The notes under the pieces are model-generated. The model saw only the letters and a program-made list of their open reading frames with translations. It did no database searches and was not told where the DNA came from. The position numbers and the translations under genes are program-made. A stretch of DNA of 64,000 nucleotides from Psychromonas sp. Urea-02u-13. GTDB taxonomy: Bacteria > Pseudomonadota > Gammaproteobacteria > Enterobacterales > Psychromonadaceae. Shown piece after piece: positions 9,640 to 33,706 of this stretch. Positions within the stretch are counted from its first letter, which is position 1. Every line of letters begins with the position of its first letter. The DNA is taken from assembly GCF_002835995.1 (NCBI RefSeq), contig NZ_PJBZ01000034.1, positions 1 through 64,000 on the forward strand, read 5' to 3'.

Positions 9640-9772
9640 CGTCTTAAAAACGATGCGTTTTAATAGTTTAAAACGTTTGGGAACTTGGTTAAAAGCCAAG
9701 GCTGCCCCCGCAACGGTAAAGTTGTTTATAGTGATATAAATGCCTAAGCCCGGATACCAAACCATTGGATGA
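9640..9772 (+). ncRNA. Cobalamin (AdoCbl) riboswitch aptamer
   Basis: The universally conserved core GCTGCCCCCGCAACGGTAA is at 9701-9719, preceded by GGGAAC at 9679 and followed by AAGCCCGGATACC at 9746-9758. A P2-like hairpin CGTTTTAA/TTAAAACG is at 9656-9675. These are the sequence hallmarks of the B12 riboswitch. It lies about 150 bp upstream of the first gene of the cobalt-transport and cobalamin cluster, so vitamin B12 is expected to repress that cluster. Exact 5' and 3' limits are approximate. Confidence 0.93.
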
Positions 9773-9793
9773 TACTTGCCCTCGAGGCAAGTA
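9773..9793 (+). promoter_or_regulatory. Hairpin in the riboswitch expression platform
   Basis: TACTTGCC and GGCAAGTA form a perfect 8-bp stem with a 5-base loop directly after the aptamer. No T tract follows, so control is more likely at translation or through alternative pairing than through a simple terminator at this hairpin. Confidence 0.5.
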
Positions 9794-9918
9794 CCGTGGT
9801 GTTGCGGAGGGCTTCACCGGCTGGTTAATTTGCATTAAAAGACGCGACTCATCTTTTAATCTGACGCGCCATCTCCTCCACAACTTCGCCTGTTATTTTT
9901 CAGACGGAGAATTTTCTC

Positions 9919-10728
9919 ATGTTACAACTCAAAAAACTGTTCAAACCGCTATTGTTAGCCACTAGCTGTGCTTTGTCTTTTTCTGCACACGCGCATTTTC
10001 AATTGCTTTATACCCCCGATTTACTGCGCGCTAAAGGCGGAGAAATCAATTTAAAACTGCCTTTTACGCATCCTGCTGCCAGCGGTCATGTAATGCCTGT
10101 TGATAAACCTGAAGCCTTTTATATGATCAAAAAAGGCAAAAAAACAGACTTAATACATACCATTTCTGATATCGAATGGGAAAGTGCTGTTGATAAAGAA
10201 CATGCCTACCAAGCCGATGTGAAGCTTCGTGGCCTTGGCGATTACGTATTCATTGTGCAACCTTCCCCGTATTTTGAAGCTGAAGAAGATATTTATATCC
10301 AACAGCTGACTAAAACCATTGTTAATGTGGGTAACTTACCCACTGATTGGAATGAAGACTTTAATCTAAGTGCTGAAATCGTCCCCTTAACCAAACCTTA
10401 CGCTATTTATGAAGGCGGTATTTTTAGTGCCGTGGTGAAATCAAAAGGTCAACCCGTACCATTTGCTGCCATTGAAGTTGAGTTCATGAACTATGTGCCT
10501 GACATGCAAAAAAATCAATTTGCTAAAGAACCTATCATGACACCACCTGCGGACGTGTTTATCACCCAAACTATTTATGCAGATGCCAACGGTACGTTTC
10601 ATTTCTCGTTGTTAAAAGCGGGTCAGTGGGGATTTGCCGCTTTAGGGATAGGGACTGAAAAAACCTATAAAGGCAAAGAACTTTCACAAGATGCTGTAAT
10701 TTGGGTTCAAGCGACTAAGTTACCTTAG
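9919..10728 (+). CDS. DUF4198 periplasmic protein of a cobalt ECF transporter (NikK/CbiK-like)
   Basis: A 269-residue exported protein with a signal peptide (cleavage after SAHA near residue 26), so the mature chain starts with His-Phe. It has the DUF4198 (PF10670) character: a beta-rich chain with HFQLLYTPD near the start and a C-terminal TIYADANGTFHFSLLKAGQWGF segment. Family members accompany NikM/CbiM-type nickel and cobalt transporters as accessory periplasmic metal-handling proteins. It is the first gene after the B12 riboswitch, and cbiM follows at 10796, which supports a role in cobalt uptake. GGAGAA precedes the ATG. It is not the anaerobic chelatase also called CbiK. Confidence 0.82.
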   Translation: MLQLKKLFKPLLLATSCALSFSAHAHFQLLYTPDLLRAKGGEINLKLPFTHPAASGHVMPVDKPEAFYMIKKGKKTDLIHTISDIEWESAVDKEHAYQADVKLRGLGDYVFIVQPSPYFEAEEDIYIQQLTKTIVNVGNLPTDWNEDFNLSAEIVPLTKPYAIYEGGIFSAVVKSKGQPVPFAAIEVEFMNYVPDMQKNQFAKEPIMTPPADVFITQTIYADANGTFHFSLLKAGQWGFAALGIGTEKTYKGKELSQDAVIWVQATKLP

Positions 10729-10795
10729 TATTCAGAATGGATAACGGTAGCTCGGATTAGACACCGACTTACCGTTTTAATTTAAAAGGATGTTT

Positions 10796-11407
10796 ATGCA
10801 TATTGTAGATGGGGCATTATCAGCACCTGTTTTAGCAGGGGGCGCGCTCTTAGCTATTGTGGGTATTTTTATTGGCCTGAAAAAAATGGACTACGACCAA
10901 TTGCCTTTAGTGGGCGTGTTAGCCTCTGTCTTTTTTATTGCTTCCTACATCCACCTTCCACTGGGTTTCTCTAGTGTGCATTTAATTATGAATGGCCTGC
11001 TGGGTATTTTATTAGGTTGGGTCGCTTTTCCGGCGTTATTAGTGGCGCTGTTATTACAAGTTATCTTCTTTGGGTTTGGTGGATTACTGGTATTAGGCGT
11101 TAATACTCTCAATATCGCCTTGCCAGCTGTTTTTATGTATTACCTCTGCTACCGCGGAATACGTCACGACAGTGCAAAAGTGGCCGCTATATGGGGCGCA
11201 ATTGGCGGTGCTGGCGCGATTGTTATCACCTCTATTATGGTTGCGTTTTCACTGGCCTTGTCTGGCGAGTCATTTGTATTAGCCGCTAAAGCGGTATTAC
11301 CCGCCCATATCCCGATTATGGTGGTCGAAGCCTTTGTCTCTTACTCTGCGGTTTATTTAATTCACTCGGTTAAACCCGATGCCATTCATAGGGATCTTAT
11401 TTCGTGA
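10796..11407 (+). CDS. cbiM: Cobalt ECF transporter S component CbiM
   Basis: The 203-residue membrane protein begins Met-His-Ile-Val-Asp-Gly, and the N-terminal Met-His forms the metal site in this family, so the start must be the ATG at 10796. The upstream ATG at 10790 overlaps the RBS AAAGGA, which sits 5 bases before 10796. About six hydrophobic helices follow, with the conserved GLLGILLGW and LQVIFFGFGGLLVLGVNTLN segments. It captures Co(II) for the CbiQ/CbiO module. The usual partner CbiN is absent; a NikL-like gene follows with a 4-bp overlap. Confidence 0.93.
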   Translation: MHIVDGALSAPVLAGGALLAIVGIFIGLKKMDYDQLPLVGVLASVFFIASYIHLPLGFSSVHLIMNGLLGILLGWVAFPALLVALLLQVIFFGFGGLLVLGVNTLNIALPAVFMYYLCYRGIRHDSAKVAAIWGAIGGAGAIVITSIMVAFSLALSGESFVLAAKAVLPAHIPIMVVEAFVSYSAVYLIHSVKPDAIHRDLIS

Positions 11408-11994
11408 AAACATTATTCGCCTGCGTGATTTTACTTTTGCTTAGTTTTAATCTTTCTGCGCATAACGTCGTGGGTGGCGTGTATGTCAGTGGCGCAGACA
11501 TTGAAGGAGAAGCCGGATTCTCTAATGGCGCGATGGCCAATGCTGGCACCTTAGTGAAAGTCTTTGATCAATCGGGCATTCCCTTAGGTGAAGTTGTCAC
11601 CGACGATGAAGGTTTTTTTATTTTTAGCGCTAAAAAGCGTATTACCCATGTCTTTGAAATCAATATGGGCGCGGGCCATACCTTAAAAATGCAACTACCC
11701 GCTGAGGAATTACCTGACAGTTTATCGGCTGAGGGTTTGACCACATCGGATGAAAATGCGCCATTAATTAGCACTTCTACAGCTATTGCATTGGATGAGC
11801 AGATAACCTCATTACTGTTAGAAAAGGCGATTGCTAAACAGATAAAACCACTGCGTAAAGAGATCCAAGCGTTAAAAGAAAAATCAGGGTTTCGCGACAT
11901 AATAGGCGGCGTTGGTTATATCTTTGGCCTGCTCGGTTTGGTGGTATTTATGCGTGAATATATGTCTAAAACTAAACAAAATGTTAAGGATTAA
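11404..11994 (+). CDS. NikL/CbiL-like accessory protein of the cobalt transporter
   Basis: A 196-residue protein with an N-terminal signal peptide (residues 1-19), a carboxypeptidase-regulatory-like beta domain at about 22-100 (VYVSGADIEGE, then GEVVTDDEGFFIF), a helical stretch and one transmembrane helix at about 167-184 before a short basic tail. This layout matches NikL, which replaces CbiN/NikN in some nickel and cobalt ECF systems. The GTG start overlaps the cbiM stop (GTGA). The first mature residues after cleavage include His (SAHN), which could help bind metal. It should not be confused with the methyltransferase CbiL encoded at 20632. Confidence 0.75.
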   Translation: MKTLFACVILLLLSFNLSAHNVVGGVYVSGADIEGEAGFSNGAMANAGTLVKVFDQSGIPLGEVVTDDEGFFIFSAKKRITHVFEINMGAGHTLKMQLPAEELPDSLSAEGLTTSDENAPLISTSTAIALDEQITSLLLEKAIAKQIKPLRKEIQALKEKSGFRDIIGGVGYIFGLLGLVVFMREYMSKTKQNVKD

Positions 11995-12000
11995 GGCGTA

Positions 12001-12795
12001 ATGTCACAAGGCTTAGAGCATAGCTTGACCTCGTGGTCAGGGCAGGCACTGAAACATCAATCTTCATGGATTGACGAGTTAGATGCGCGGGTGCGGGTTG
12101 TGTGTGCTGCACTTTTTGCTTTAGTGGTAGTTTCTAGTGTGAGTTTTGTAGCGGTATTGCTCGGTTTAAGTTTTGCGTTTTTTGTTGTTAAAGCGAGCAA
12201 ATTAAACATCAAACGCACTTTGCGTCGCGTAGTTGCGATGGACCTGTTTATGCTCACGCTGATTTGTGTTTTACCTTTTACCACACCGGGTGACACTATG
12301 TTTACCCTGTTTGGTTTATCAGCAAGCTGGCAAGGATTAACCCATGCTTTGTTAATTACCTTGAAAGCTAATGCGGTGTTATTAGTACTGTTTTCATTGG
12401 TGGCAACGATGAGTGCATCGACCTTTGGACACGCGTTAGCACATTTAAAGGTACCCGATAAATTGGTGCATTTGTTACTTTTTTTAGTACGTTATTTAGA
12501 TGTGATTAGCCAAGAATACAAAAAGATGCGCAGGGCCATGCAAGCACGTGCCTTTGTTATGGGCACCAATTTCCATACCTGGAAAAGCATTGGTTACTTG
12601 TTTGGCATGTTATTGATTCGCTCTATTGAACGTGCTGAACGCATTTTAGGCGCAATGAAATGCCGTGGTTTTTGTGGGCGTTTTTATCTTAACGATGAAA
12701 TGAAAATCACCCCTTTAGATAGACGCTTTAGCGCCTTCTTTTCGTGTTTTTTAATACTCTTAATAGGGATCAATGTAGATGACTTATTGCAATAA
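12001..12795 (+). CDS. cbiQ: Cobalt ECF transporter T component CbiQ
   Basis: A 264-residue membrane protein with about five helices. It carries the two short cytoplasmic Ala-Arg-Gly-type motifs of ECF transmembrane components: RRAMQARAF and the later AMKCRGF, which couple to the ATPase. A 6-bp gap separates it from the NikL-like gene, and it overlaps cbiO by 17 bp. It links the CbiM substrate subunit with CbiO. Confidence 0.92.
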   Translation: MSQGLEHSLTSWSGQALKHQSSWIDELDARVRVVCAALFALVVVSSVSFVAVLLGLSFAFFVVKASKLNIKRTLRRVVAMDLFMLTLICVLPFTTPGDTMFTLFGLSASWQGLTHALLITLKANAVLLVLFSLVATMSASTFGHALAHLKVPDKLVHLLLFLVRYLDVISQEYKKMRRAMQARAFVMGTNFHTWKSIGYLFGMLLIRSIERAERILGAMKCRGFCGRFYLNDEMKITPLDRRFSAFFSCFLILLIGINVDDLLQ

Positions 12796-13468
12796 ACCGT
12801 TAATCGAAATCGAAGATCTAAACTATGCCTACCCAAGGCGTGGCAGTGTATTAAAGGACATTAATTTCTTGTTATATCAAGGCGATCGCGTGGTAATTAA
12901 TGGGGATAATGGTGCAGGAAAAACAACGTTATTACACTTGATTGTTGGTTTGAAGAAAGCCAAACAGGGCGATATTTATGGCTTTGGTGAAATCTGTAAA
13001 ACTGAAAAGCAATTTAATCGATTACGCGCAAAAGCGGGTTTATTGTTCCAAGATCCTGATGATCAACTCTTTTGCCCAACGGTATTAGAAGATGTCATGT
13101 TTGGCCCGATCAACTTAGGGTTTACTAAAACACAAGCCATCGAAAAATCGATTGTTACTCTCAATCGTTTAGGTCTGCAAGGCTTTGAATCGCGTATTAC
13201 TCACCAGCTCTCTGGTGGTGAAAAACGCATGGTCACACTGGCCTGTGTATTAGTGATGGAGCCTGAAGTCTTAATATTGGATGAACCCACTAATGCCCTT
13301 GATGAGAAAGCTAAATTGCGTTTATTAAATGTATTAAAAACCTTGCCACAGGCGATGATCATCATTTCACACGATAAACCCTTTGCGCAGCAACTCGCGA
13401 CACGCACTTTGTTATTACAAGATGGTTTGTTAACAGAGCAGATAAACAACCACGAAGCCGTTGCGTAA
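12779..13468 (+). CDS. cbiO: Cobalt ECF transporter ATPase CbiO
   Basis: A 229-residue ABC ATPase. Walker A is GDNGAGKTT at about 42-50, the Q-loop is LLFQDPDDQLFCPTVLEDV (typical of CbiO/EcfA), the signature is LSGGEKR, Walker B is VLILDEPTNALD, and the switch His is in IISHDK. It is slightly shorter than many CbiO proteins (270 or more), lacking an extended C-terminus. It powers the CbiM-CbiQ transporter in the inner membrane. Confidence 0.94.
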   Translation: MTYCNKPLIEIEDLNYAYPRRGSVLKDINFLLYQGDRVVINGDNGAGKTTLLHLIVGLKKAKQGDIYGFGEICKTEKQFNRLRAKAGLLFQDPDDQLFCPTVLEDVMFGPINLGFTKTQAIEKSIVTLNRLGLQGFESRITHQLSGGEKRMVTLACVLVMEPEVLILDEPTNALDEKAKLRLLNVLKTLPQAMIIISHDKPFAQQLATRTLLLQDGLLTEQINNHEAVA

Positions 13469-13481
13469 AGAGGGGGTTAAT

Positions 13482-15356
13482 ATGGAAAATGACAAACACA
13501 GTAAAATGGACTCGATCAATCAATCACACAATAATGTTTTCCCGTTTACCGCGGTGCAAGGGCAACCGTTATTTAAACTGGCATTGTTATTAGCCACTGT
13601 AAATCCGTTAATTGGTGGGGTATTAATTTCTGGACCACGTGGCTGTGCTAAATCGACCTTGGCACGTGGTGTTGCGGATCTTTTACCTGCAAAGCAAGAT
13701 CTTACACCGCAGTTTGTGACGTTACCGCTCGGTGCGAGTGAAGAGATGCTTATTGGCACGCTTGATTTAGAGCAAGTATTAAATAACAAGTCGGTGCAGT
13801 TTTCTGCCGGTTTATTAAAAAAAGCACACGGTGGTGTGTTGTATGTGGATGAAGTGAATCTGCTGCCAGATCATTTAGTAGATCAGCTGTTAGATGTCGC
13901 CAGCAGTGGCGTTAATATTGTTGAACGTGATGGTATTAGTCACTCTCACGAGGCGGCGTTTACCTTAATTGGCACTATGAATCCCGATGAAGGCGAATTG
14001 CGTCCGCAGTTACAAGATCGTTTTGGTTTAATGGTTGAGCTAGATAATAACTACAGTTTAGATGAGCGCATTAATATCGTTAAAACACGCCAAGCCTTTG
14101 AAGCAGATAAAGGCCTTTTTTGCGATCAATACCAAGTACAACAAATAGTATTACAGCAGCAAATTAGCGATGCACAAAAGCGCTTAGTTGATGTGACCTG
14201 TGCCGAGCACTGTTTTATCGATATTGCTAAGCGTTGCCAACAAGCCAATGTTGAAGGTTTACGCGCAGATATTATGATGCATCGCGCCAGTATTACCCAT
14301 GCAGCATGGTGTGGCAGAAGCGAAGTTACTTTAGACGATATTGAACAAGTCGCACCTTTAGTCTTATTGCACCGTCGCCAATCAGGTGGAACACCGCCTA
14401 ATAGTGGAAAAGACAACAAGACAGAACAGAGCGAACAACAAAAAACAGAGCAAAATCAGCCAGCGACTAACAGTGGATTTTCACGTCCGCAAGTCCCACA
14501 AACACCCGCTCAAACAGAGCAATCAGAAACCGATGCTAATACTAACAGTGGCAACGAGAGTGGCAATGATAATGGCACTGGGAATGACAGCCACGAGAAC
14601 GTCGGTGAATGGGGCGCAATGCCAACACAAAATGCTGAAAGTCAGAAAACCGGTGAGGCGATTAACTTAACCTTGCCAGCTTTAACAACGCATTTGGCGA
14701 AACAGAGTAAAAACCAAGATAGCTTGGTTAAACGACACAGTGCACAAGATAAACAAACCAGTGCTCATGGGGCACAAAAAAGTGCGCTTGAAGGTGCTAA
14801 ACCCGATTGGTTTTCAACGATTTCAAATTCAATTGGGGCATGGCCACCGGCCAAATTCGCGTATAAAAAATTGGCCAAAGGGCAACAACATTGTCATTTG
14901 ATTTTATTAGATACCTCAGCGTCAACACTCAGTCAAAGTTTGTCGTCGTTGGCTAAATCAGTGGTGGTGAACATCGCACAAAGCGCTTATTTACAACGCG
15001 ATAAAATGAGCGTGTTAGGTTTTGGTAATGATCAAATTGAAACCATTATTAAAGCAGGACGTGCGCCTAAAAAGATAGAAAATCAACTTGATGAAATCTG
15101 CGCTGCGGGTGGTACGCCATTACGCTTAGCACTACAAAATGCAGCTAACAGAATTAACTCTCTGACTAAACAATATCCTAGCTTACAGCTGTTTTGTTAT
15201 TTGATAACGGATGGGCGTAGTCGTGTGGATCTTGAGGATCTTAAACTCAGCGTACCTACCTTATTGATTGATATTGAAAAATCGCAAGTAAAACGAGGCC
15301 GTGGCAAAGTATTAGCGACACAACTCGATGCGAGTTATTTAGCGATACAGGGCTGA
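13482..15356 (+). CDS. ChlI-ChlD fused chelatase motor (AAA+ plus VWA)
   Basis: About 624 residues. The N-terminal part is an AAA+ ATPase of the magnesium/cobalt chelatase type: Walker A SGPRGCAKST, Walker B VLYVDEVNLLPDHLVD, and GTMNPDEGELRPQLQDRFG. Residues about 310-400 are a Gln/Asn/Ser/Thr-rich acidic linker. The C-terminal part is a VWA domain with an intact MIDAS set (DTSAS, then GGTPLRLA, then ITDGRSR). Such fused ChlID proteins replace CobS and CobT as the motor for CobN, and cobN lies downstream. The ATG at 13482 with AGAGGGGG upstream is a better start than 13461. Confidence 0.88.
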   Translation: MENDKHSKMDSINQSHNNVFPFTAVQGQPLFKLALLLATVNPLIGGVLISGPRGCAKSTLARGVADLLPAKQDLTPQFVTLPLGASEEMLIGTLDLEQVLNNKSVQFSAGLLKKAHGGVLYVDEVNLLPDHLVDQLLDVASSGVNIVERDGISHSHEAAFTLIGTMNPDEGELRPQLQDRFGLMVELDNNYSLDERINIVKTRQAFEADKGLFCDQYQVQQIVLQQQISDAQKRLVDVTCAEHCFIDIAKRCQQANVEGLRADIMMHRASITHAAWCGRSEVTLDDIEQVAPLVLLHRRQSGGTPPNSGKDNKTEQSEQQKTEQNQPATNSGFSRPQVPQTPAQTEQSETDANTNSGNESGNDNGTGNDSHENVGEWGAMPTQNAESQKTGEAINLTLPALTTHLAKQSKNQDSLVKRHSAQDKQTSAHGAQKSALEGAKPDWFSTISNSIGAWPPAKFAYKKLAKGQQHCHLILLDTSASTLSQSLSSLAKSVVVNIAQSAYLQRDKMSVLGFGNDQIETIIKAGRAPKKIENQLDEICAAGGTPLRLALQNAANRINSLTKQYPSLQLFCYLITDGRSRVDLEDLKLSVPTLLIDIEKSQVKRGRGKVLATQLDASYLAIQG

Positions 15357-15362
15357 TCACAC

Positions 15363-16784
15363 ATGAACACTAATAAGATGAATACAAACATGAACAAAGC
15401 GAGTTGCCCGGCATTGTTTTTAGCCGCACCCGCATCAGGGCAAGGTAAAACAACTATAACAGCTGCCATCGCACGCTACTTTACGATGCAAGGAAAAGTG
15501 GTGCGTGTGTTTAAAACCGGGCCTGATTACCTTGACCCACAAATACTGGCGCAGGCATCTAATGCACATGTCGAGCAATTAGATATGTGGATGGCCGGTG
15601 AAAACTATTGCCAGCAGAAGCTTTATGAAGCGGCGCTTGAGGCTGATCTTATTTTAGTCGAAGGCGCAATGGGCCTGTTTGATGGTGAACCATCAAGTGC
15701 TGATTTAGCTGCTCGTTTTAACCTGCCTATCGCAATCGTGATGGATGTAAAAGGCATGGCACAAACGGCGGGCGCGATTGCGATTGGCTTGGCGAACTAC
15801 CGCGATGATTATGAATGTTATGGTTTAATCGCTAATAATTGCAGCACAGATCGCCATGCACAATTAATCAGAGAAGCACTTGCCGATAAACTACCTTTAT
15901 TAGCTTGCCTTAAAAAAGATGAAACGATTACGCTACCTGAGCGTCATTTAGGCTTAGTGCAAGCGAGTGAAGTGTTTGATGAGTTAGAAGAAAAATTCAC
16001 CCTCGCAGGTGAGTGGTTAAAAGAGGGAGTCATACGTGCAAACGCTTCGAGTCCCTTATTTCCGAACACTATATTAACCTTGCCTGCGCCTGTTGATTTT
16101 TATGCGACTGAATTACCCAGTGTTAAACCGTTATTAAAAGGCAAAACCATTGCGATTGCACGTGATCGTGCTTTTAGTTTTATCTATCAAGCTAATACAC
16201 GCTTGTTAGAAGAGATGGGCGCAAGGTTAGTTTACTTCTCACCGTTGACCGATACGCAGCTTCCTGAGACCGATGCGTTATGGTTACCGGGTGGTTATCC
16301 TGAGCTTTATGCTCAGCAATTGGCACAAAACCAAACCATTCAGCAACAAATACAGCAGTTTTATCAAAGTGATAAACCGGTATTAGCAGAATGTGGTGGC
16401 TTTTTATATTGTTTGAACGAGCTGATCGATTTGGACAATAAACACCATCAAATGCTTGGCCTCTTAGCCGGTAACGGCAGTATGTCGGGAAAACGTGGTT
16501 GTCAGGGCATGCAAAAAGCAATATTGCCAGAGGGTGAGATTCACGGTCACGCACATCATCGCTCACGCGCCATTATGGATATGGATGCCATGGGGTACGG
16601 GCAACGTCAACGCCACCCTGCACCGGGAGAGCCTATTTATCGTGATAAAAAACTCACGGCCAGTTATTTACACCTATTTTTCCCATCAAACCCAGCATTG
16701 ATTGCCAACTTATTTACAGGGCAACTTCAAGCGGTTGATAAAGAAAAATTAAACGCTTGGCAGCAAATAGCAGGTAACCAGTAA
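15363..16784 (+). CDS. cbiA: Cobyrinic acid a,c-diamide synthase
   Basis: A 473-residue amidotransferase that uses glutamine and ATP to amidate the a and c side chains of cobyrinic acid. It has an N-terminal BioD-like P-loop (ASGQGKTT) and a C-terminal class I glutaminase-like domain (LWLPGGYPE, then AECGGFLYCL with the catalytic Cys). The IHGHAHHRSR region is the conserved family segment near the C-terminal end, followed by ASYLHLFF. If CobN is active here, the same enzyme could also act on hydrogenobyrinic acid, as CobB does. Length is normal for the family. Confidence 0.93.
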   Translation: MNTNKMNTNMNKASCPALFLAAPASGQGKTTITAAIARYFTMQGKVVRVFKTGPDYLDPQILAQASNAHVEQLDMWMAGENYCQQKLYEAALEADLILVEGAMGLFDGEPSSADLAARFNLPIAIVMDVKGMAQTAGAIAIGLANYRDDYECYGLIANNCSTDRHAQLIREALADKLPLLACLKKDETITLPERHLGLVQASEVFDELEEKFTLAGEWLKEGVIRANASSPLFPNTILTLPAPVDFYATELPSVKPLLKGKTIAIARDRAFSFIYQANTRLLEEMGARLVYFSPLTDTQLPETDALWLPGGYPELYAQQLAQNQTIQQQIQQFYQSDKPVLAECGGFLYCLNELIDLDNKHHQMLGLLAGNGSMSGKRGCQGMQKAILPEGEIHGHAHHRSRAIMDMDAMGYGQRQRHPAPGEPIYRDKKLTASYLHLFFPSNPALIANLFTGQLQAVDKEKLNAWQQIAGNQ

Positions 16785-17959: not shown

Positions 17960-18726
17960 AAATTTTAGTTATCGGTGGCACCGCTGACGGTCGCCATCTA
18001 ACCAGTGCTTTATTTGAATCTGGCTTTGATGTCACTTATAGCATTGCGGGTATTGTGCGCAAAGCCACGCTGCCTTGCTCGGTGATTAGTGGCGGGTTTA
18101 CGCAGTTTGGCGGATTAGCGCAATATGTATTGGATAACAACATCACCCATTTGATTGATGTTACTCATCCCTTTGCGCAAAAAATGAGTAATAAAATTTC
18201 ATTAGTCAGTGAAGACTTAGCAATCGCTGCTATTCGTTTTCACCGCCCTGAATGGCCAAAACATGTGCACGATAAGTGGATCGAAGTTAACGATTGGCCT
18301 GAATTGATAACAGCGGTGAATACTGCAAAACATCAATCACTGTTTATGACCGCAGGGCAAGTGACACAATCTGTGATTGATGCACTCGCGAGTCAGGCGA
18401 AACATGTTTTATTGCGCACTGCGATGCCGGTAAAAATCCATTTACCCAACAATGTCACATGGGTAAAAGCCATTGGTCCTTTTCAATTAGACAATGAAAA
18501 GCAGCTGATAGAGCAATACCAAATAGATGCCATTATCAGCAAAAATAGTGGCGGTGATCCAACTTATGCAAAAATTGAAGCTGCGCGCGACTTGGCTATT
18601 CCGGTCTACCAATTTAAACGCCCCACACTAGCACCGACGCAATACCAATGTGATAACCAACAAGGCTGTTTTGATCTGTTAAATATCCTAGCTTCTAATG
18701 AAAATAAAAGTAATGAGTGTAACTAA
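17956..18726 (+). CDS. cbiJ: Precorrin-6A reductase (cobalt-precorrin-6A reductase)
   Basis: A 256-residue CbiJ/CobK protein: N-terminal ILVIGGTADGRHL, the DVTHPFAQKMS motif, ITAVNTAKHQSLFMTAG, then IISKNSGGDPTYAKIEAARDL near the C-terminus. It reduces the macrocycle with NAD(P)H. It overlaps cbiD by 4 bp and cbiC by 1 bp. Confidence 0.92.
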   Translation: MKILVIGGTADGRHLTSALFESGFDVTYSIAGIVRKATLPCSVISGGFTQFGGLAQYVLDNNITHLIDVTHPFAQKMSNKISLVSEDLAIAAIRFHRPEWPKHVHDKWIEVNDWPELITAVNTAKHQSLFMTAGQVTQSVIDALASQAKHVLLRTAMPVKIHLPNNVTWVKAIGPFQLDNEKQLIEQYQIDAIISKNSGGDPTYAKIEAARDLAIPVYQFKRPTLAPTQYQCDNQQGCFDLLNILASNENKSNECN

Positions 18727-25288: not shown

Positions 25289-28200
25289 ATGCATCTATTA
25301 GCGGCACAACCAGGTGGTTTTGTAGAGCAAGAAGGCATTGTGGATTTAGCACAATCGCCAGCACCATTAATCATAATGAGTGCGGCTGATAGTCAATTAA
25401 CCGCGCTTTCTGCGGGTTTTAAATTGGCTAATCAGCAACATCAGCTCACTGAAATGCGTTTGGTTAATTGGACAAATCTACTTAAACCTGCTGCCTTTGA
25501 TCTTTATGAAGATAAAGTATTAGAGCAGGCAAAAGTGGTAGTGGTGTCGTTATTAGGTGGCAAAGGTTATTGGTTATACGGTGTTGAGGCGTTAGTGCGT
25601 TGGTCGCAACAAGTGGCTGGGCGCACGCTTATTTTGGTGCCCGGTGATGACAATGTTGATCCTGAACTGATTTCGTTATCAACGGTGTCAGAACAAACGC
25701 AGCGTCAAGTGTGGCGCTACTTTCGCAGTGGCGGCATTGATAATAGTAAACAGCTATTTGGTTTTTTAAATCAACACTATTTTTCTCTGCCGAGTGATTA
25801 CAGCGAACCAGCGTTTTTGCCCGTTGCACAGTTTTATAATGAACAAAATATTCATTGGCGTGACAATCAAGATGTCGTGGGACTGATTTTTTATCGTAGT
25901 CATCTTCAATCGGCGAATTGCCAGATGTTTGATGATCTGATTGCGTTAATGTCTAGCAATGGCTTAAACCCATTACCGATTGTGATTAGCTCACTCAAAG
26001 AAAAGCAAGTCATTGAAACGGTAAATAATTTATTAATAACACACCATTGTCAGCTGATTTTAAACAGTACCGGTTTTGCTTCTAACGCGGTCAGTAGTCC
26101 CGATTTAAGCTCACAACCGAATAGTTTTAAACGCCTGTTTAGTGTTGATATCCCGATTTTACAGTTAGTGCTTTCAAGCACCACATTGCAAGATTGGCTG
26201 GACTATAAACAAGGCTTACGCAGTCGTGATATTGCCATGCAAGTGGTATTGCCAGAGATGGATGGCAAAGTATTAACCCGCGCTATCAGTTTTAAAACCG
26301 AGGCGTTCTTTGATGAAAAAACGCAGATTTCCTTGGTGCAATATCAGCTTCATCCTGAGCGTGCGTTATTTGTGATTGAACTGGCTAAAAAGTATGTTGA
26401 GCTGGCCAACAAAGCCAATAAAGATAAACGCATTGCCTTGATTCTAGCGAATTATCCTACCAAAGACGGACGTATCGGTAACGGTGTGGGCTTAGATACA
26501 CCGAACTCAACGGTGAATATATTACAGACGTTAAAAGCCGCGGGTTACCCCGTTGGAGATGTGCCTGAAAATGGCAATCAGCTGATTGAGCAATTATTAC
26601 AATCTGTGACAAACAACCCTAATACCTTGCATCATCTTGCCTGTTGGCAAAGCTTGTCATTAAGCGATTATAAAAAGGCCTTTGCGAATTTACCATTGGT
26701 TAGTCAACAAGCGATTATAGCGCGCTGGGGTGAGCCCGAAGCGGATATTAAATGTCGTGATGGGCGTTTAATGATTTCCGGCATCCGTTTAGGTGAAACC
26801 TTTGTTGGTATTCAGCCTGCACGTGGTTTTAATGTCGATTTACTGGCTAATTATCACGATCCGGATCTTGTGCCACCGCATAACTATTTAGCTTTTTATT
26901 TTTGGTTACGTTTTAACTATCAAGTGAATGCGGTTATTCATGTGGGTAAACACGGTAATTTAGAATGGTTACCGGGCAAAGGTTTGGCGCTTTCTAATGA
27001 GTGTTGGCCCGATGCGGTGCTTGGTCCGATGCCCCATTTTTACCCGTTTATTGTTAATGACCCCGGTGAAGGTGCACAAGCTAAAAGACGCACGCAAGCG
27101 GTGATTATTGATCACCTTATGCCACCCATGACACGCGCTGAAACCTATGGTGAATTAGCGGAACTCGAAGGACTGGTGGACGAGTATTATCAAGCGCAGG
27201 GCTTAGATACACGTCGTGAAATTTGGTTACGCGAGCAGATACTAAACAAAGTACAAGAAACACATGTTTTAGATGAACTGAATGCATCGCAACGCGAAGA
27301 TGATAATGAAGTTCTTGAACAGTTAGATACTTACCTCTGTGATATTAAAGAAGCGCAAATCCGCCATGGGTTGCATATTCTTGGCCAATTACCAGAGCCG
27401 ATAAAAGTGGCGAATACCTTAGTGGCATTATTACGTTTACCGCGCGGTGAAGGGCTGATTAATCAAGGTATTTTGCACAGTGTGGTGTATGACTTTTCAT
27501 TAAAACATGAAGGTGAGTTGTTTGACCCCTTAGAGGCGGGGCGTGAACCTTGGCTAGGCGAAATGCCAATTTTGTTAAAAGAGATCACTGATGTGTTATG
27601 GCGCACCACGGCAGATACCCGCGAACGATTAGAATTGTTAGTTTTACATTGGGTACAATATTACCTAATTGAAGGGCATGATTTAAGCGAATTAGCCCCT
27701 TATGCCAAAACACATGCGCTGTTTATTTATGCGCAGAATACCATTCAAGTGGCACTGCAACAGAGTGTTGAAAATGAACTGAGTGCCATTGTTGATGGCC
27801 TCGCGGGTAAATTTATTGACGCGGGCCCTAGTGGCGCGCCAACAAGAGGGCGTTTAGATACCTTGCCAACGGGGCGTAATTTTTACTCCGTTGATAACCG
27901 TGCTATTCCTTCAAAAGCGGCTTGGGTATTAGGTCAACAATCGGCACAAGCGCTGATTAACCGCCATTTACAAGAACAGGGTGATTATCCGAAACAGTTA
28001 GGTTTATCGGTATGGGGCACGGCAACGATGCGTACAGGCGGTGATGATATTGCGCAAGCCTTTGCGTTAATGGGCGTAAAACCCTTATGGGCGCAGGGCA
28101 GTAATCGTGTTATCGATTTTGAAATAATTCCTTGCCAGTTATTAGGCCGTCCAAGAGTGGATGTCACGCTACGTGTTTCAGGTTTTTTTAGAGATGCCTT

Positions 28201-29089
28201 TCCTAATGTGATGTCATTATTTGATGCCGCTGTGGTGGCAATTAGTGAGCTACAAGAGCCTGGAAATGGTAATATCATCAAACAAAATATTCAGCGACGC
28301 GAAGCGCAGTTAATTGCCGATGGTCTGAGTATTAGTGATGCTAAACGCCAAGCGAGTTATCGTGTCTTTGGCTCTAAACCCGGCGCTTATGGTGCAGGTT
28401 TACAAGGCTTGATTGATGAACGCTGTTGGGAGCAAAAAAGCGATTTAGCAGAAGCCTATTTAAACTGGGGTGGTTACGCTTACGGAAACTCGAATGGAAA
28501 CGGGGACAAAGATGGCGTAGAGGCAAAAGAGGCGTTCCAATATCAATTAAGTCATATTGAAGTAGTGGTGCAAAACCAAGATAACCGCGAGCATGACTTG
28601 CTTGATTCCGATGATTATTACCAGTTTCAGGGGGGCATGAGTAACGCTGCACAAGTCTATTCTGGGACAGCACCGACTATTTACCATAGCGATCACAGTA
28701 ACCCCAGTAAACCGATTATTCGCACCTTAAAAGAGGAACTTAATCGTGTATTACGCTCTCGTGTTTTAAATCCAAAATGGATACAAGGCATGCGCGAACA
28801 TGGTTACAAAGGCGCTTTTGAAATGGGCGCAACCGTTGATTATCTGTTTGCCTATGATGCCACCACGGATTTGATTGCCGACTACCAATATCAACAAGTC
28901 ACCGATACCTTGTTATTGGATGAAACGAACCAACAGTTTTTGCGTGATAATAACCCGCAAGTGATGGAAGAGATGGCCGAGCGATTAATGGAAGCAGCGC
29001 AACGCGGTTTATGGCAAGCACCCGGTGAGTATCAAGATAAATTACAAGATCTCCTGTTAGAATATGACGAAATGCGAGAATCAAAGTAG
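25289..29089 (+). CDS. cobN: Cobaltochelatase large subunit CobN
   Basis: About 1266 residues, the usual size. Conserved blocks: HVGKHGNLEWLPGKGLALS, GAPTRGRLDTLPTGRNFYSVD, VWGTATMRTGGDDIAQAFAL, and RPRVDVTLRVSGFFRDAFPN. Related to BchH/ChlH, but the cobalamin context and block details favour CobN, which inserts cobalt into hydrogenobyrinate a,c-diamide with an ATPase motor (here the ChlID at 13482). The ATG at 25289 follows AAAAAGG; the frame opens earlier at 25235 but has no good RBS there. Presence together with CbiX is unusual. Confidence 0.94.
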   Translation: MHLLAAQPGGFVEQEGIVDLAQSPAPLIIMSAADSQLTALSAGFKLANQQHQLTEMRLVNWTNLLKPAAFDLYEDKVLEQAKVVVVSLLGGKGYWLYGVEALVRWSQQVAGRTLILVPGDDNVDPELISLSTVSEQTQRQVWRYFRSGGIDNSKQLFGFLNQHYFSLPSDYSEPAFLPVAQFYNEQNIHWRDNQDVVGLIFYRSHLQSANCQMFDDLIALMSSNGLNPLPIVISSLKEKQVIETVNNLLITHHCQLILNSTGFASNAVSSPDLSSQPNSFKRLFSVDIPILQLVLSSTTLQDWLDYKQGLRSRDIAMQVVLPEMDGKVLTRAISFKTEAFFDEKTQISLVQYQLHPERALFVIELAKKYVELANKANKDKRIALILANYPTKDGRIGNGVGLDTPNSTVNILQTLKAAGYPVGDVPENGNQLIEQLLQSVTNNPNTLHHLACWQSLSLSDYKKAFANLPLVSQQAIIARWGEPEADIKCRDGRLMISGIRLGETFVGIQPARGFNVDLLANYHDPDLVPPHNYLAFYFWLRFNYQVNAVIHVGKHGNLEWLPGKGLALSNECWPDAVLGPMPHFYPFIVNDPGEGAQAKRRTQAVIIDHLMPPMTRAETYGELAELEGLVDEYYQAQGLDTRREIWLREQILNKVQETHVLDELNASQREDDNEVLEQLDTYLCDIKEAQIRHGLHILGQLPEPIKVANTLVALLRLPRGEGLINQGILHSVVYDFSLKHEGELFDPLEAGREPWLGEMPILLKEITDVLWRTTADTRERLELLVLHWVQYYLIEGHDLSELAPYAKTHALFIYAQNTIQVALQQSVENELSAIVDGLAGKFIDAGPSGAPTRGRLDTLPTGRNFYSVDNRAIPSKAAWVLGQQSAQALINRHLQEQGDYPKQLGLSVWGTATMRTGGDDIAQAFALMGVKPLWAQGSNRVIDFEIIPCQLLGRPRVDVTLRVSGFFRDAFPNVMSLFDAAVVAISELQEPGNGNIIKQNIQRREAQLIADGLSISDAKRQASYRVFGSKPGAYGAGLQGLIDERCWEQKSDLAEAYLNWGGYAYGNSNGNGDKDGVEAKEAFQYQLSHIEVVVQNQDNREHDLLDSDDYYQFQGGMSNAAQVYSGTAPTIYHSDHSNPSKPIIRTLKEELNRVLRSRVLNPKWIQGMREHGYKGAFEMGATVDYLFAYDATTDLIADYQYQQVTDTLLLDETNQQFLRDNNPQVMEEMAERLMEAAQRGLWQAPGEYQDKLQDLLLEYDEMRESK

Positions 29090-29157: not shown

Positions 29158-29808
29158 ATGAAAAGTAAACATAGTTATAGCGAAATAGAAAAACAGGCCG
29201 TGTACCGTGTTATCGCGGAACGCCGTGATATGCGTCATTTTGTTAAGGCACCCCTTGAAGAGGGTGTATTAACGCGTTTATTAACCGTAGCTAATCAAGC
29301 CCCGAGTGTGGGTTTGATGCAACCTTGGCGTTTTATTCGCATCACCGACGCTAATTTAAAAAACGCGATTAAAGGGTTGGTAGAAACCGAACGAAATACC
29401 ACTGCTGAATTATTAGATTCACGTAAAAGTGAATTTTTAAAACTTAAAGTGGAAGGCATTTCAGAGTGTGCTGAGCTGATCGTGGTTGCCTTACCCGATG
29501 GACGCGAGAAACATATTTTTGGACGCCGTACTATGCCTGATATGGATCTCGCCTCTGTTTCTTGTGCAATTCAGAATATGTGGTTAGCGGCCCGCGCAGA
29601 AGGCATTGGCCTTGGTTGGGTATCGCTGTTTGATCCTATCGAACTGGCCACATTATTAAACATGCCTGAGGACAGCCGACCGGTGGCGATTTTATGTATT
29701 GGCCACGTAGAAAAATTTTATGAAAAACCGATGCTGGTGGAACAAAACTGGTGTCAGCCTGCAGAGATTGAAGAATTTTTGTTTGAAAATAGCTGGCCAA
29801 CTAAATAA
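29158..29808 (+). CDS. bluB: 5,6-Dimethylbenzimidazole synthase BluB
   Basis: A 216-residue nitroreductase-fold flavoprotein with the BluB pattern: ERRDMRHF near the start, NQAPSVGLMQPWRFI, RRTMPDMDLASVSCAIQNMW and GIGLGWVSLFDP. It converts FMNH2 and O2 into the lower ligand of cobalamin, so it needs oxygen. Located between cobN and cbiX in the same orientation. Confidence 0.95.
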   Translation: MKSKHSYSEIEKQAVYRVIAERRDMRHFVKAPLEEGVLTRLLTVANQAPSVGLMQPWRFIRITDANLKNAIKGLVETERNTTAELLDSRKSEFLKLKVEGISECAELIVVALPDGREKHIFGRRTMPDMDLASVSCAIQNMWLAARAEGIGLGWVSLFDPIELATLLNMPEDSRPVAILCIGHVEKFYEKPMLVEQNWCQPAEIEEFLFENSWPTK

Positions 29809-29858: not shown

Positions 29859-31037
29859 ATGAATGCAAAAGTAGCTAAAAAAGGGATCATGGTTTGTGGT
29901 CATGGTAGCCGTGATAAAGATGCAGAAATGGAATTTGGATTAGTGGCTCAAGGGCTGAAAAAACGTTTTCCTGACATGCCCATTGAATATGGTTTTTTAG
30001 AGTATTCTGCGCCGAATATCCACATGGGATTAAACAGTCTTATTGCTCAAGGTGTGGATCATATTTACGCCGTGCCTGGTATGTTATTTGCGGCGACACA
30101 TGCAAAAAATGATATCCCTTCGGTATTAACTACCTTTGAAGATCAAAATGCAGGGTTGAATGTTAGTTATGGGCAAGAGTTGGGTTTACAAAAACCAATG
30201 ATTGAAGCATTCCAAGCACGTATTTATGAATCATTAGGTTTGGATGCAAGCAATCCACCTGCTGAGCTTTACGATACAATGTTAGTGGTTGTTGGCCGTG
30301 GTACATCAGACAGTGAAGCTAATGCAGAAGCGGCTAAGCTCACGCGTATTGTGAGTGAAAATATGGGTTTTGGTTGGGCTGATACGGTTTATTCTGGTGT
30401 GACGTATCCCTCTGTTGGTGTGGGTCTTGAGAAGCTCTTAAAACTCGGTTACAAGCGCATTGTTGTTGCGCCATATTTCCTTTTCACAGGTCGATTAATT
30501 AAACGTATTTACGGTTACATTGATAAAGTAGCGAGTGAAAACCCAGGGGTAGAATTTATTAAAGCCGGATATTTACGCGATCATGAAAAAGTCATTGATG
30601 CCTTTGAATTTCGTGTACGTGAAATTATGGAAAACAAACAAAGCAACGATGAAAACCTCATGGATACCTTTAAACGTCGTTTAGCCGCTGGCGAAATCGA
30701 TGTGCATCATCATCACGCTGAATATCAAGATCCAGCGTTAGCTGAGAAAGCACATACGCATGACCATTCACACGATCATAGCCATGAACACTCGCATAGT
30801 CATTCACACAGCCATGCTGATAATCACGCCAACAGTCACGCTCATAGCCATGACAATGTTGAACCGCACAGCCACGGTGTTTACAAGCATATTTGGCACC
30901 CATTAGGGCCTCGAACTATGATTGGCGAAGGCATCTGTAACTGCTTTATGAGTCAGTTCCCGAAAGAACTGTTAGACGAAGAGATTGAACGCATCAATAA
31001 TGGCGTACAAGGTGAAGCGTTAGCTCATAGGAAATAG
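29859..31037 (+). CDS. cbiX: Sirohydrochlorin cobaltochelatase, long CbiX
   Basis: About 392 residues. Two CbiX half-domains in tandem: the first with VCGHGSRDKDAEMEF and PGMLFAATHAKNDIP, the second with LVVVGRGTSDSEANAEAAKL and VVAPYFLFTGRLIKRI. A His/Asp-rich tail at about 295-345 is followed by a conserved C-terminal piece with GICNCFMSQFPKELLDEEI. It inserts cobalt into sirohydrochlorin at the start of the early-insertion pathway. The MxCxxC iron-sulfur motif described for some long CbiX proteins is not visible. The ATG at 29859 is chosen over 29838 because the conserved part starts there. Confidence 0.92.
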   Translation: MNAKVAKKGIMVCGHGSRDKDAEMEFGLVAQGLKKRFPDMPIEYGFLEYSAPNIHMGLNSLIAQGVDHIYAVPGMLFAATHAKNDIPSVLTTFEDQNAGLNVSYGQELGLQKPMIEAFQARIYESLGLDASNPPAELYDTMLVVVGRGTSDSEANAEAAKLTRIVSENMGFGWADTVYSGVTYPSVGVGLEKLLKLGYKRIVVAPYFLFTGRLIKRIYGYIDKVASENPGVEFIKAGYLRDHEKVIDAFEFRVREIMENKQSNDENLMDTFKRRLAAGEIDVHHHHAEYQDPALAEKAHTHDHSHDHSHEHSHSHSHSHADNHANSHAHSHDNVEPHSHGVYKHIWHPLGPRTMIGEGICNCFMSQFPKELLDEEIERINNGVQGEALAHRK

Positions 31038-31080: not shown

Positions 31081-31140
31081 TTTTCCATATGGAAGCGGGA
31101 CTTTAGTCCTGCCAATATTTGTATAAGAAAAAGATAAAAC

Positions 31141-31725
31141 GTGAATAAAAAAACTATTTTCCACCTTGCTCGTCATGGTCAGACAGCTTGGAACATTGAA
31201 CACCGTATTCAAGGGCTGCTTGATAGCTTGCTGACCACAGAAGGTGAGGCGCAGGCATTACAGCTCGCAACGTTATGTTTACCTTTAAACATCAGCCAAG
31301 TATTAACCTCATCATTGGGCCGTGCGATGCAAACGGCGACGATTTGCTCACAACGATTGCAAGTAGAAGCAAAAATCGTAGAGGGCATTGAAGAGCGTAA
31401 TTTTGGCGCGTGGCAAGGAAAGTTAACGCCTGATATGCAGTCACATGAGAATTATGTGGAAATCACTTCACAGGTAACGGATTGCAAACCCGAGCAGGGC
31501 GAAAGTGCGAAACAGTTATTAACTCGTTTTGAAGCTGCGCTAAAAAAACAATGCCAAACATCCCCTAATGAAGTTTGCTTAATTATCACGCACGGTGATG
31601 TATTGCGCTGTTTTATGGCCAATCTTTTACAAGAAGGTTTATCAAAAACTGGTTACGACTACAAAAATGGACAGCTTATTTCCATTAGTTACGATCAACA
31701 AAGCGGCTGTTTCACGGCTTTATGA
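31141..31725 (+). CDS. cobC: Alpha-ribazole phosphatase (histidine phosphatase family)
   Basis: A 194-residue phosphoglycerate-mutase-like protein: ARHGQTAWN with the phosphorylated His, TSSLGRAMQTA, EGIEERNFGAWQG and the second catalytic His in IITHGDVLRCF. In this context it most likely removes phosphate from alpha-ribazole 5'-phosphate or adenosylcobalamin phosphate. The start is GTG with only a weak RBS. The stop overlaps the cbiB start (ATGA). Confidence 0.88.
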   Translation: MNKKTIFHLARHGQTAWNIEHRIQGLLDSLLTTEGEAQALQLATLCLPLNISQVLTSSLGRAMQTATICSQRLQVEAKIVEGIEERNFGAWQGKLTPDMQSHENYVEITSQVTDCKPEQGESAKQLLTRFEAALKKQCQTSPNEVCLIITHGDVLRCFMANLLQEGLSKTGYDYKNGQLISISYDQQSGCFTAL

Positions 31726-32690
31726 TGTTATCGTTTACTTTGTTTGCCGCCCTTATTGTGGATCATTTCATCGGTGAGCCAAAGCGATTTCATCCACTGG
31801 TTTTATTTGGAAAAGTGGCGAAAAAAATAGAGCGAAAATTAAACCACGGTTCAAACAGAAAGCGTTTTTTAGGCGGTATGCTCGCTTGGAGTTTGTTGGT
31901 TTTACCTATTCCATTGCTTTATGTTGGGCTAACGCTTATTTTTCCCTATTATCTTTTGGTGATAATTAATGTTTATATTGTTTATTGGGCAGTCGCACTC
32001 AACAGCCTCAATGTACATGGCATGAAAATCTACAATCCGCTGCAAGAAAACGACCTCACACAAGCGCAACATTATTGTGGTTATATTGTAAGTCGTGATA
32101 CCAGCGAACTTGATGCGCAGGCGATTAGTCGGGCCACCACTGAATCCATGCTAGAAAATGGCCATGATGGTGTGACCGCGACCTTGATCTATTTTGTACT
32201 TGGTGGCGCGCCTCTGGTAATTATTCATCGTTTGAGTAATACCCTGGATGCGATGTGGGGTTATCGCACTGAGCAGTTTAATTATTTTGGTAAATTCAGC
32301 GCTCGCTTGGATGACATCTTAGGTTTTGTCAGTGGTAAAATTACGGCGTTATTGTTTGCGCTTTTAGGTTTCGTAAAAGGAAATGTAACCACTGTGGGTA
32401 AGGCTTTAAGCAATGCTTATCAACAAAGTAAGCAGTACAAAAGTCACAATGGTGGTTGGGTAATGGCATCGGGTGCGACTGTGTTAAATGTCTGTTTGGG
32501 CGGTAAAGCGGTCTATTTTGGAAAAACCGTGCAATCACCTCAATTAGGTGAAGGTGAAGTGGTGCAAAGTAAGCATATTAAAGGCAGCTTAATACTAGTA
32601 AAACAAGCGACTTTACTGTGGTTATTATTGGTCTTCATTAGTGAGATAATAGCTATATCGACAGGCATCTTAATAGGACAAGTCACTTAA
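31722..32690 (+). CDS. cbiB: Adenosylcobinamide-phosphate synthase CbiB
   Basis: A 322-residue membrane protein with LIVDHFIGEPKRFHPLVLFGK at the start, RDTSELDAQAISRATTESML, ENGHDGVTATLIYF and GGWVMASGATVLNVCLGG. It attaches aminopropanol or its phosphate to cobyric acid in the inner membrane. Confidence 0.94.
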   Translation: MMLSFTLFAALIVDHFIGEPKRFHPLVLFGKVAKKIERKLNHGSNRKRFLGGMLAWSLLVLPIPLLYVGLTLIFPYYLLVIINVYIVYWAVALNSLNVHGMKIYNPLQENDLTQAQHYCGYIVSRDTSELDAQAISRATTESMLENGHDGVTATLIYFVLGGAPLVIIHRLSNTLDAMWGYRTEQFNYFGKFSARLDDILGFVSGKITALLFALLGFVKGNVTTVGKALSNAYQQSKQYKSHNGGWVMASGATVLNVCLGGKAVYFGKTVQSPQLGEGEVVQSKHIKGSLILVKQATLLWLLLVFISEIIAISTGILIGQVT

Positions 32691-33706
32691 TGGCTATTTT
32701 ACATGGTGGGCAACTCAGTCGTGTTGCGTTGCAGTACAACATTCCCGAAACACAGTGGTTAGACCTATCAACGGGTATTGCCCCCTTTAGTTATCCGATT
32801 ACTGATATTCCTTTAAAGGTATGGCAAGACTTACCTACAGTGTCAGAACAGTTCTTACATGTCGCAAAACAGTATTACCAAGCACAGTATTGCTGGCCAG
32901 TGTCTGGTAGTCAGGCATTGATTGAAAAGTTGCCTGCGCTTTGGCGAAAAAAACACCCCTCAGCAGGGCATGTTTATTTACCCAAAGTCGGTTACAAGGA
33001 GCATCAACACGCTTGGCAACAAGCCGGTTATGAATTGCATTTTTATCAGAAAAATCTGCCTAAAACATTACATGAAAATGCTGTTGTGGTGGTGATAAAC
33101 CCCAATAATCCGCTCACAGATACCTTCTCTATTAAGCAATTATCGCAATTACAGCAACGCTGTGACATTCAAAACAGCCTATTGATTATTGATGAAGCGT
33201 TTGCTGATATATTTGAACCTGCATTTAGTTTTGTAACACAGATCAAAGCCGATACCGACAATGTCATTGTATTGCGCTCTTTTGGTAAGTTCTTTGGACT
33301 GGCGGGATTACGCATCGGTTTTGCTTGTTGTAGTTTAAGCTGGTTTGAAATAATCAAAACAACGAGTGGCCCTTGGGCGGTTAATGGCCCGGCTTTGTAT
33401 ATTGCAGAGCAAGCACTGCAAGACAAAAGTTGGCAACAAGCACAAACAAAACGCTTACAAACTCAAAGCCAGCAGCTACAAAGCTTATTAGAAAGCGCTT
33501 TGATGGTGAGTCGCATTGAAGCGAATGCGTTGTTTATGACTGTGTTTTTGGACAATGCACCGGCTATTTATGATCAATTATGCCAAAAAGCGATTTACGT
33601 GCGCCTAACCGATGAAAATGATGCCTTACGTTTTGGCATTGCTGATGAAATACAGCTTGCAAGGTTACGCTTGTTATTGGAACCATCATCACTTATAAAA
33701 CAATGA
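32690..33706 (+). CDS. cobD: Threonine-phosphate decarboxylase (CobD/CobC-type PLP enzyme)
   Basis: A 338-residue class I/II aminotransferase-fold enzyme. It opens with HGGQLSRVALQYNIP, typical of cobalamin-pathway members; LLIIDEAFAD and the PLP-lysine segment RSFGKFFGLAGLRIGF are intact. It makes aminopropanol phosphate for CbiB, whose gene it follows with a TAATG overlap. It is the last recognisable cobalamin gene of the cluster. CbiP, CobU, CobS and CobT are not found in the window. Confidence 0.92.
   Translation: MAILHGGQLSRVALQYNIPETQWLDLSTGIAPFSYPITDIPLKVWQDLPTVSEQFLHVAKQYYQAQYCWPVSGSQALIEKLPALWRKKHPSAGHVYLPKVGYKEHQHAWQQAGYELHFYQKNLPKTLHENAVVVVINPNNPLTDTFSIKQLSQLQQRCDIQNSLLIIDEAFADIFEPAFSFVTQIKADTDNVIVLRSFGKFFGLAGLRIGFACCSLSWFEIIKTTSGPWAVNGPALYIAEQALQDKSWQQAQTKRLQTQSQQLQSLLESALMVSRIEANALFMTVFLDNAPAIYDQLCQKAIYVRLTDENDALRFGIADEIQLARLRLLLEPSSLIKQ

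Follow-up and report, generated by a model that had tools for sequence, protein, structure and literature searches.

An operon with early-type and late-type cobalt insertion genes

The window analysed here, 64,000 nucleotides of contig NZ_PJBZ01000034.1 in the 4.75-Mb draft genome of Psychromonas sp. Urea-02u-13, carries a cobalamin (vitamin B12) operon in which a long CbiX, the putative chelatase of early cobalt insertion, stands beside the parts of a late cobaltochelatase: CobN, a fused ChlI-ChlD motor protein (ChlID) and CobW (Table 1). The original prediction had placed CbiX, CobN, the fused ChlID, CobW, CbiD and CbiG in one co-directional cluster, and all are present there. Behind a cobalamin riboswitch the order is DUF4198, cbiM, a NikL-type gene, cbiQ, cbiO, chlID, cbiA, cbiD, cbiJ, cbiC, cbiET, cbiL, cbiG, cbiH, cbiF, cobW, cobN, bluB, cbiX, cobC, cbiB and cobD. 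DUF4198 proteins are frequent neighbours of cobalt/nickel energy-coupling factor (ECF) transporters.

Table 1. Features of the cobalamin operon in the window (scores in bits)
Feature	Position	Strand	Evidence
Cobalamin riboswitch aptamer RF00174	9634..9779	+	56.6 (gathering score 31.5), full-length model; precedes first gene
DUF4198 protein	9919..10728	+	PF10670 153.4
Cobalt ECF transporter: CbiM, NikL-family CbiN-like, CbiQ, CbiO	10790..13468	+	profile matches
Fused ChlI-ChlD motor (AAA+ and VWA)	13461..15356	+	likely start ATG 13482
CbiA/CobB a,c-diamide synthase	15363..16784	+	401.2 (cut-off 254)
CbiD	16787..17959	+	472.6 (cut-off 348); TIGR00312 358.6 (cut-off 200)
CbiJ, CbiC, fused CbiE-CbiT, CbiL	17956..21360	+	profile matches
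CbiG	21357..22115	+	PF11760 (N-terminal) 115.2; PF01890 (C-terminal) 104.7
CbiH/CobJ	22228..23025	+	TIGR01466 285.6 (cut-off 246)
CbiF/CobM	23306..24106	+	TIGR01465 311 (cut-off 260)
CobW GTPase metallochaperone	24096..25193	+	458 (cut-off 332); CICC at residue 87, His-rich stretch
CobN, late cobaltochelatase large subunit (predicted)	25235..29089	+	homology from about ATG 25289, the likely start, downstream of the first in-frame start 25235
BluB, dimethylbenzimidazole synthase	29158..29808	+	246.3 (cut-off 150)
Long CbiX (CbiX-L type)	29859..31037	+	two CbiX domains, His pair in first, His-rich tail, C-N-C-F-M near end; first in-frame start 29838, homology from about ATG 29859
CobC-type phosphatase, CbiB, CobD-type decarboxylase	31141..33706	+	profile matches; CobC-type below curated cut-off

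By gene content the operon is of the cobalt-early class. It encodes a class II chelatase (CbiX), CbiG with its N-terminal domain, and CbiD, together with a complete set of CbiL, H, F, J, ET, C and A; the best matches of CbiJ and CbiC lie under the strict equivalog cut-offs, and the domain search of CbiG gave no match for its middle domain. On the cobalt-late side CobN is present, but with a ChlID motor, and the genome search proposed in the original prediction found neither CobT nor CobG above cut-off (best CobG match 53.4 bits against 234.8); CobZ was likewise absent above cut-off (23.7 bits against 372.6, a score on which we rejected a hidden CobZ). Within the cluster no gene is best named CobG or CobF, as had been predicted, the search for CobF covering the cluster only, with neither CobF nor CobS sought genome-wide. 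The sub-threshold CobG matches (53.4, 28.6 and 28.3 bits) lie in frames of 587, 877 and 861 amino acids, which we take from their length to be sulfite/nitrite reductases, and we rejected them as a hidden CobG on that basis. CobG or CobZ prepares the metal-free ring contraction (PMC7242693), and the step carried out by CbiG is said to depend on cobalt (PMC8305020). With CbiG, CbiD and CbiX present and CobG and CobZ absent above cut-off, the known chemistry encoded here is cobalt-early.

Components of the two chelatases

CobN matched TIGR02257 over its full length with 1565 bits (cut-off 822), fell short of the cut-off of the BchH model (698 bits against 829), and among solved structures found a CobN as its best match (1166 bits, against 409 for ChlH); it is the single PF02514 protein of the host genome. 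Judged by these scores it is a genuine cobaltochelatase-type large subunit, for which cobalt insertion into hydrogenobyrinate a,c-diamide is the predicted reaction. The adjacent CobW passed the curated CobW model and has the CxCC motif, as CICC. ChlID carries a Walker A-like GPRGCAKS at residue 58, DTSAS (D-x-S-x-S) at 484 and TDG at 583.

The window CbiX has two PF01903 domains, with the chelatase-type His pair in the first (His22/His88 of the listed reading frame, 15/81 when counted from ATG 29859), and a His-rich tail. It thereby resembles Bacillus megaterium CbiX-L, described with two CbiX domains, a His14/His79 pair in the first and a His-rich tail (PMC7689651). The B. megaterium protein has an MxCxxC 4Fe-4S motif, however, which is absent from the window CbiX tail, where the only Cys residues are 367 and 369, within C-N-C-F-M. 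Tails of the window type and of its near relatives end in H-P-x-G-P-R-T-M ... C-x-C-F-M, and both Cys are kept in 23 of 23 aligned rows of long CbiX; the C-x-C is lost from the CbiX of order genome G001 (locus L161). MxCxxC was found in the long CbiX of loci L151, L154, L195 and L196, and roseobacter tails differ again from the window type. This tail variant (C-x-C-F-M in place of MxCxxC) is apparently new. A P. megaterium match, lying in a siroheme cluster, was not used.

The two best matches of CbiX among solved structures are sirohydrochlorin ferrochelatases (about 102 bits), and a Paracoccus CbiX has been proved a siroheme enzyme (PMC4063343); the CbiX of the window might likewise be a ferrochelatase and insert no cobalt. 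This is very unlikely. One CysG is encoded in the host genome and is available for siroheme, cbiX lies inside the B12 operon and adjoins cobW-cobN in four rearranged genomes (below), and the His-rich tail agrees with CbiX-L; the Paracoccus His pair is in the second domain (PMC4063343), that of the window in the first. CysG and the position of the His pair were our grounds for setting the siroheme role aside.

The host genome also encodes a second, short CbiX-like protein of 121 amino acids (positions 195-560 of locus L036, contig C5 of G000), whose best NCBIfam matches are below cut-off; no B12 gene was recognised in the 2-kb stretch around it.

CbiX-L and CobN in the order

In a sample of 295 genomes of the order, CobN was matched at threshold in 31, of which 20 had orthologues (at least 65% identity in the best pieces) and 11 only distant matches (30-36%). 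A long CbiX occurred in 20 of the 295, and these were the identical set to the 20 with orthologous CobN. CbiD was found in 31: those 20, and 11 more without orthologous CobN, one of which (G023) has a distant CobN-like gene. We fetched the CbiD clusters of seven of these 11, and all seven contained CbiK. In the order sample, then, CobN accompanies CbiX-L and is absent where CbiK was seen. The 20 genomes with both chelatases belong to five of the 99 genera sampled, with 12 in the window's own genus; of the 23 genomes sampled from that genus, the window's own counted in, 11 have neither CbiX-L nor orthologous CobN, and two of these 11 are only 79 and 85% complete.

The pairing has outlived rearrangement of the operon. 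Four genomes (G001, G079, G152 and G264) have cbiX and cobW-cobN in divergent orientation, and the remaining cbi genes of G152 lie about 30 kb from this group, yet the two chelatases stay together.

The distant CobN-like proteins (30-36% identity over the best pieces, frames of up to 1580 amino acids) occur in 11 order genomes without CbiX-L, including G247 (locus L030), and G152 and G264 have such a gene as a second copy beside the orthologue. On a Marinobacter plasmid (L155) a distant CobN-like gene lies near corrinoid-uptake-like genes, a cobyrinate a,c-diamide synthase gene, cobO and a cobyric acid synthase gene, a possible salvage context.

CbiX-L and CobG in genomes selected for CobN

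A second sample was picked for the possession of CobN, 50 of 80 named loci being read as whole genomes; it overlaps in part with the order sample (G037 and L048 are evidently the same). CobG was above cut-off in six of the 50 and probable in a seventh (L075, two sub-cut-off pieces), which has no CbiX-L. Long CbiX, at 244 bits or more, was present in 42, and the other eight reached at most 36 bits; the 42 include Psychromonas, Oceanospirillaceae, Hahella, a Vibrio, roseobacters and an Aquificaceae metagenome-assembled genome. No genome had both CbiX-L and CobG, and one (L076) had neither. Sub-cut-off CobG matches of 112-163 bits in other genomes are presumably sulfite/nitrite reductases as well. 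The CobZ model was passed in four of the 50, and the two that were checked (G336 and G339) are TcuA with an adjoining TcuB; the others are G329 and G341. Since CbiX-L and CobG never overlap in these 50 genomes, the early module appears to be an alternative to CobG, with CobN accompanying either. The strictness of the CbiX-L/CobN pairing in the order sample is apparently new.

These counts bear on the suggestion in the original prediction that the cell can switch between cobalt entry points, which in full would mean an early route without oxygen and a late, metal-free route with oxygen, the latter with some unrecognised enzyme standing in for CobG. The operon includes bluB, whose product consumes oxygen; CobN, ChlID and CobW carry their motifs, and most of the 50 CobN genomes have neither CobG nor CobZ above cut-off; facultative anaerobes and aerobes are also said usually to possess both routes (PMC9227772). 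The full switch is nonetheless unsupported and in our judgement unlikely, because the known metal-free ring-contraction enzymes, CobG and CobZ, are missing above cut-off from the genome. Both routes would moreover have to share one methyltransferase set and one riboswitch, and CobG and CbiX-L are mutually exclusive in the sample.

CobN phylogeny, selection and co-inheritance

We built a CobN tree of 59 rows by a quick method under LG+G4 and used only its Pseudomonadota part, given the long branches of the archaeal, Deinococcus, Marinobacter and BchH rows and an uneven residue composition. The window CobN groups with those of Psychromonas (its closest named relatives, 83-85% identity), and BchH stands apart. 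The branching with magnesium chelatases that the original prediction had named as contrary to its idea did not occur, and on the tree, the model scores and the solved-structure matches together we rejected a magnesium chelatase relative. The CobN of Natronospirillum (L072), from a CobG-bearing genome, is nested among the CobNs of CbiX-L genomes.

Persistence of CobN while the front end changes, and the exclusion of CbiX-L (42 genomes) and CobG (six and one probable) with an overlap of zero, could mean that cobalt enters mainly through CobN/ChlID/CobW and that CbiX-L is otherwise employed, supplying a scaffold metal for ring contraction or replacing CobG; the exclusion does make CbiX-L behave like a CobG substitute. 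Ordinary chemistry gives the same exclusion, however, early cobalt making CobG unneeded, the chelatase His pair is kept in CbiX-L, and the tree has only two changes of front end. We regard this explanation as quite improbable.

The original prediction had also offered another tetrapyrrole as the substrate of CobN, an idea opposed by the grouping of this CobN with those of CobG-route bacteria and by its best structural match. A wider form of it, in which CobN/ChlID would serve another metal or tetrapyrrole or remove metal, can point to HmuS, a heme de-chelatase that is a relative of CobN, and to the distant CobN-like proteins described above (11 order genomes of 295 that lack the orthologue, plus the second copies of G152 and G264). 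We give it very little credence: CobN is far over its model cut-off and is placed by the tree with CobG-route CobN, a CobW with CxCC is adjacent, and B12 genes share the operon.

The ratio of nonsynonymous to synonymous differences (pN/pS) was taken between the window and nine Psychromonas loci for 14 cluster genes (chlID from three loci). It stood at 0.148 in cobN, 0.136 in cobW and 0.165 in cbiX, the 14 genes spanning 0.062-0.312; only the order of these values is meaningful, since synonymous sites are near saturation. CobN is under purifying selection. Protein distances were compared over the window and 22 loci, out of 27 in which cbiX matched strongly. Those of CobN correlated at 0.77-0.96 with those of CobW, CbiC, CbiG, CbiL, CbiD and CbiX, the lowest being CbiX; cbiH was left out, since its correlations of about 0.3 stem at least partly from a wrongly extracted frame (L049, 12 amino acids). 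Nothing points to decay of CobN or to its recent addition. That CobN/ChlID is a relic under loss, for which chlID as the least constrained of the 14 genes (0.312, three loci) could speak, is scarcely credible: cobN and cobW rank with the more constrained genes, the motifs are intact, and orthologous CobN is present in 20 of the 20 CbiX-L genomes of the order sample.

An uncultured Vibrio sp. (L063) carries a Psychromonas-type cluster, with a CobN 78% identical to that of the window and grouping with Psychromonas, which suggests horizontal transfer.

A possible second entry for cobalt

The explanation we favour, at about even odds (roughly 0.5), is a cobalt-early pathway with a maintained late cobaltochelatase as a second, cobalt-specific entry. 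The gene content, the absence of CobG, CobZ and CobT above cut-off, the families of the parts, their co-occurrence and the purifying selection are observed; the catalysis of each enzyme, the substrate of CobN in this cell and the physiological reason we infer as follows. CbiX-L would insert cobalt into sirohydrochlorin, and CbiL, H, F, G, D, J, ET, C and A would then build the ring. CobN would hold the corrin, the fused ChlID would be the ATP motor and CobW would deliver cobalt, so that the late enzyme could recharge metal-free corrin a,c-diamides that leak past CbiX (with oxygen present or cobalt scarce) or are taken up. Class II chelatases are apparently not selective for the metal, whereas CobNST is cobalt-specific (PMC7689651), and CobW is reported as crucial under limiting cobalt (PMC7895991); a cobalt-early cell with oxygen and little cobalt would probably gain from a specific second entry. 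A salvage or repair role, as raised in the original prediction, would be compatible with these observations, and salvage has been put forward in print for haloarchaea too (PMC8305020).

Several points weigh against this second-entry explanation. We know of no metal-free CobN substrate from any CbiG-type pathway. The metal choice of CbiX is not readable from its sequence, and the best NCBIfam match of ChlID, TIGR02442 ('putative cobaltochelatase'), gave 453 bits, under the cut-off of 779, so that the pairing of ChlID with CobN is drawn from gene neighbourhood and family, with no equivalog test passed. Because the 20 paired genomes fall in five genera, the independent events are few; the co-occurrence partly reflects inheritance of the operon, and the CobG/CbiX-L state changes only twice on the CobN tree (three times if 'neither' is counted as a state). 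Finally, an occasional salvage role would seem to predict a looser retention of CobN with CbiX-L than is found.

As a second-entry role does not fully explain a CobN that is never missing from the CbiX-L genomes of the order sample, we keep in view a double-chelatase route, itself very improbable, in which metal inserted by CbiX-L would enable contraction by CbiH and CbiG (replacing CobG) and CobN/ChlID/CobW would make the definitive, cobalt-specific insertion. If true, it would be a third kind of corrin pathway, with both chelatases needed for each molecule, and would explain the constant CobN beside CbiX-L in the order sample, the exclusion of CbiX-L and CobG in the 50 CobN genomes, and the staying of CobN while the front end changes.

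Relation to known systems

The pairing of CbiX with CobN has already been published for haloarchaea and, in general terms, for bacteria. CbiX, CobN and ChlID all occur in Haloferax volcanii, and the authors, who report haloarchaea as not using the late pathway, speculated on salvage for the late enzyme (PMC8305020). In H. volcanii (HVO_B0050-B0061) and Halorubrum lacusprofundi (pHLAC01), as in the window, CbiX, CbiG, CobJ/CbiH, CobN and a ChlID-type protein share one locus, but that cluster is archaeal, with a CobN about 33% identical and a different gene order; no CobW was seen in the haloarchaeal stretch, which has CbtA/CbtB, no CbiMQO, and MxCxxC in its CbiX tail. Plasmid 2 of Deinococcus deserti clusters a CbiX domain, CbiD, a CobW-like GTPase, BluB, CobN and a ChlID-like VWA protein, but there the CbiX domain is fused with a precorrin-8X methylmutase, CobN is 38% identical and MxCxxC is present. 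Roseobacter-type genomes have CbiX-L beside early genes (nine stretches), CobN in the genome and no CobG above cut-off; unlike in the window, cobN lies outside those nine stretches, and the CbiX tail is of another kind.

Elsewhere CobN accompanies CbiK, in Geobacter lovleyi (PMC3403914) and an Antarctic Chlorobium (PMC8620254). The G. lovleyi plasmid pSZ77 shares with the window cobalt-early genes and a late-type CobN, but has CbiK and TonB-type genes beside cobN, and CobS/CobT homologs are reported absent (PMC3403914). With the late pathway of the Pseudomonas denitrificans type (CobNST, CobW, CobG) the window shares the CobN and CobW families, but its genome has neither CobG nor CobT above cut-off and has a ChlID motor.

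The operon is thus a real, well-conserved case of a known but unexplained pairing, unsurprising to a B12 specialist. Our searches of open-access papers, subscription papers being excluded, turned up no publication on the Psychromonas operon or on the CbiX-L/CobG exclusion. Predictions of whether a bacterium can make B12 in the presence or absence of oxygen and cobalt use the early/late division of the pathway. Since a set of marine Proteobacteria, roseobacters included, combines an early front end with a late chelatase, the route cannot be read from CobN or CbiX taken singly. Because the pairing is strict within one genus that also has members lacking both enzymes, what CobN does in a cobalt-early cell is directly testable by gene removal.

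Transcription and neighbouring features

Of the 21 junctions in the cluster, 15 are overlaps or spacers of no more than 6 bases, and the longest gaps are 112 and 280 bp flanking cbiH and 103 bp after cbiX. The spacing suggests that the whole cluster is probably on a single transcript, with two gaps flanking cbiH; terminator-like sites number 21 on both strands against 13.1 +/- 4.3 in shuffles, a count that does not settle the question. No second cobalamin riboswitch reached the gathering score in the window, and none was found in the stretches of G001 (L161) and G152 (L163) that hold cbiX and the cobW-cobN pair. In these two genomes, where the pair sits apart from the other cbi genes, no palindrome common to the cbiX-cobW spacers was seen. 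With neither a second riboswitch nor a shared palindrome, we rejected a separate switch for the late enzyme.

The 280-bp gap between cbiH and cbiF (23026-23305) is non-coding and holds at least one perfect inverted repeat, at 23055-23074; the 31-base piece containing it occurs once in the window and is possibly a small mobile repeat. Directly after cobD, at 33732-34640 (+), lies a class A beta-lactamase gene of the CARB/GMA kind, which scored 409 bits on the CARB/PSE/RTG model (cut-off 430) and 287.9 on the general class A model (cut-off 200). Convergent with it is a gene for a LysR-type regulator, at 34683-35552 (-).

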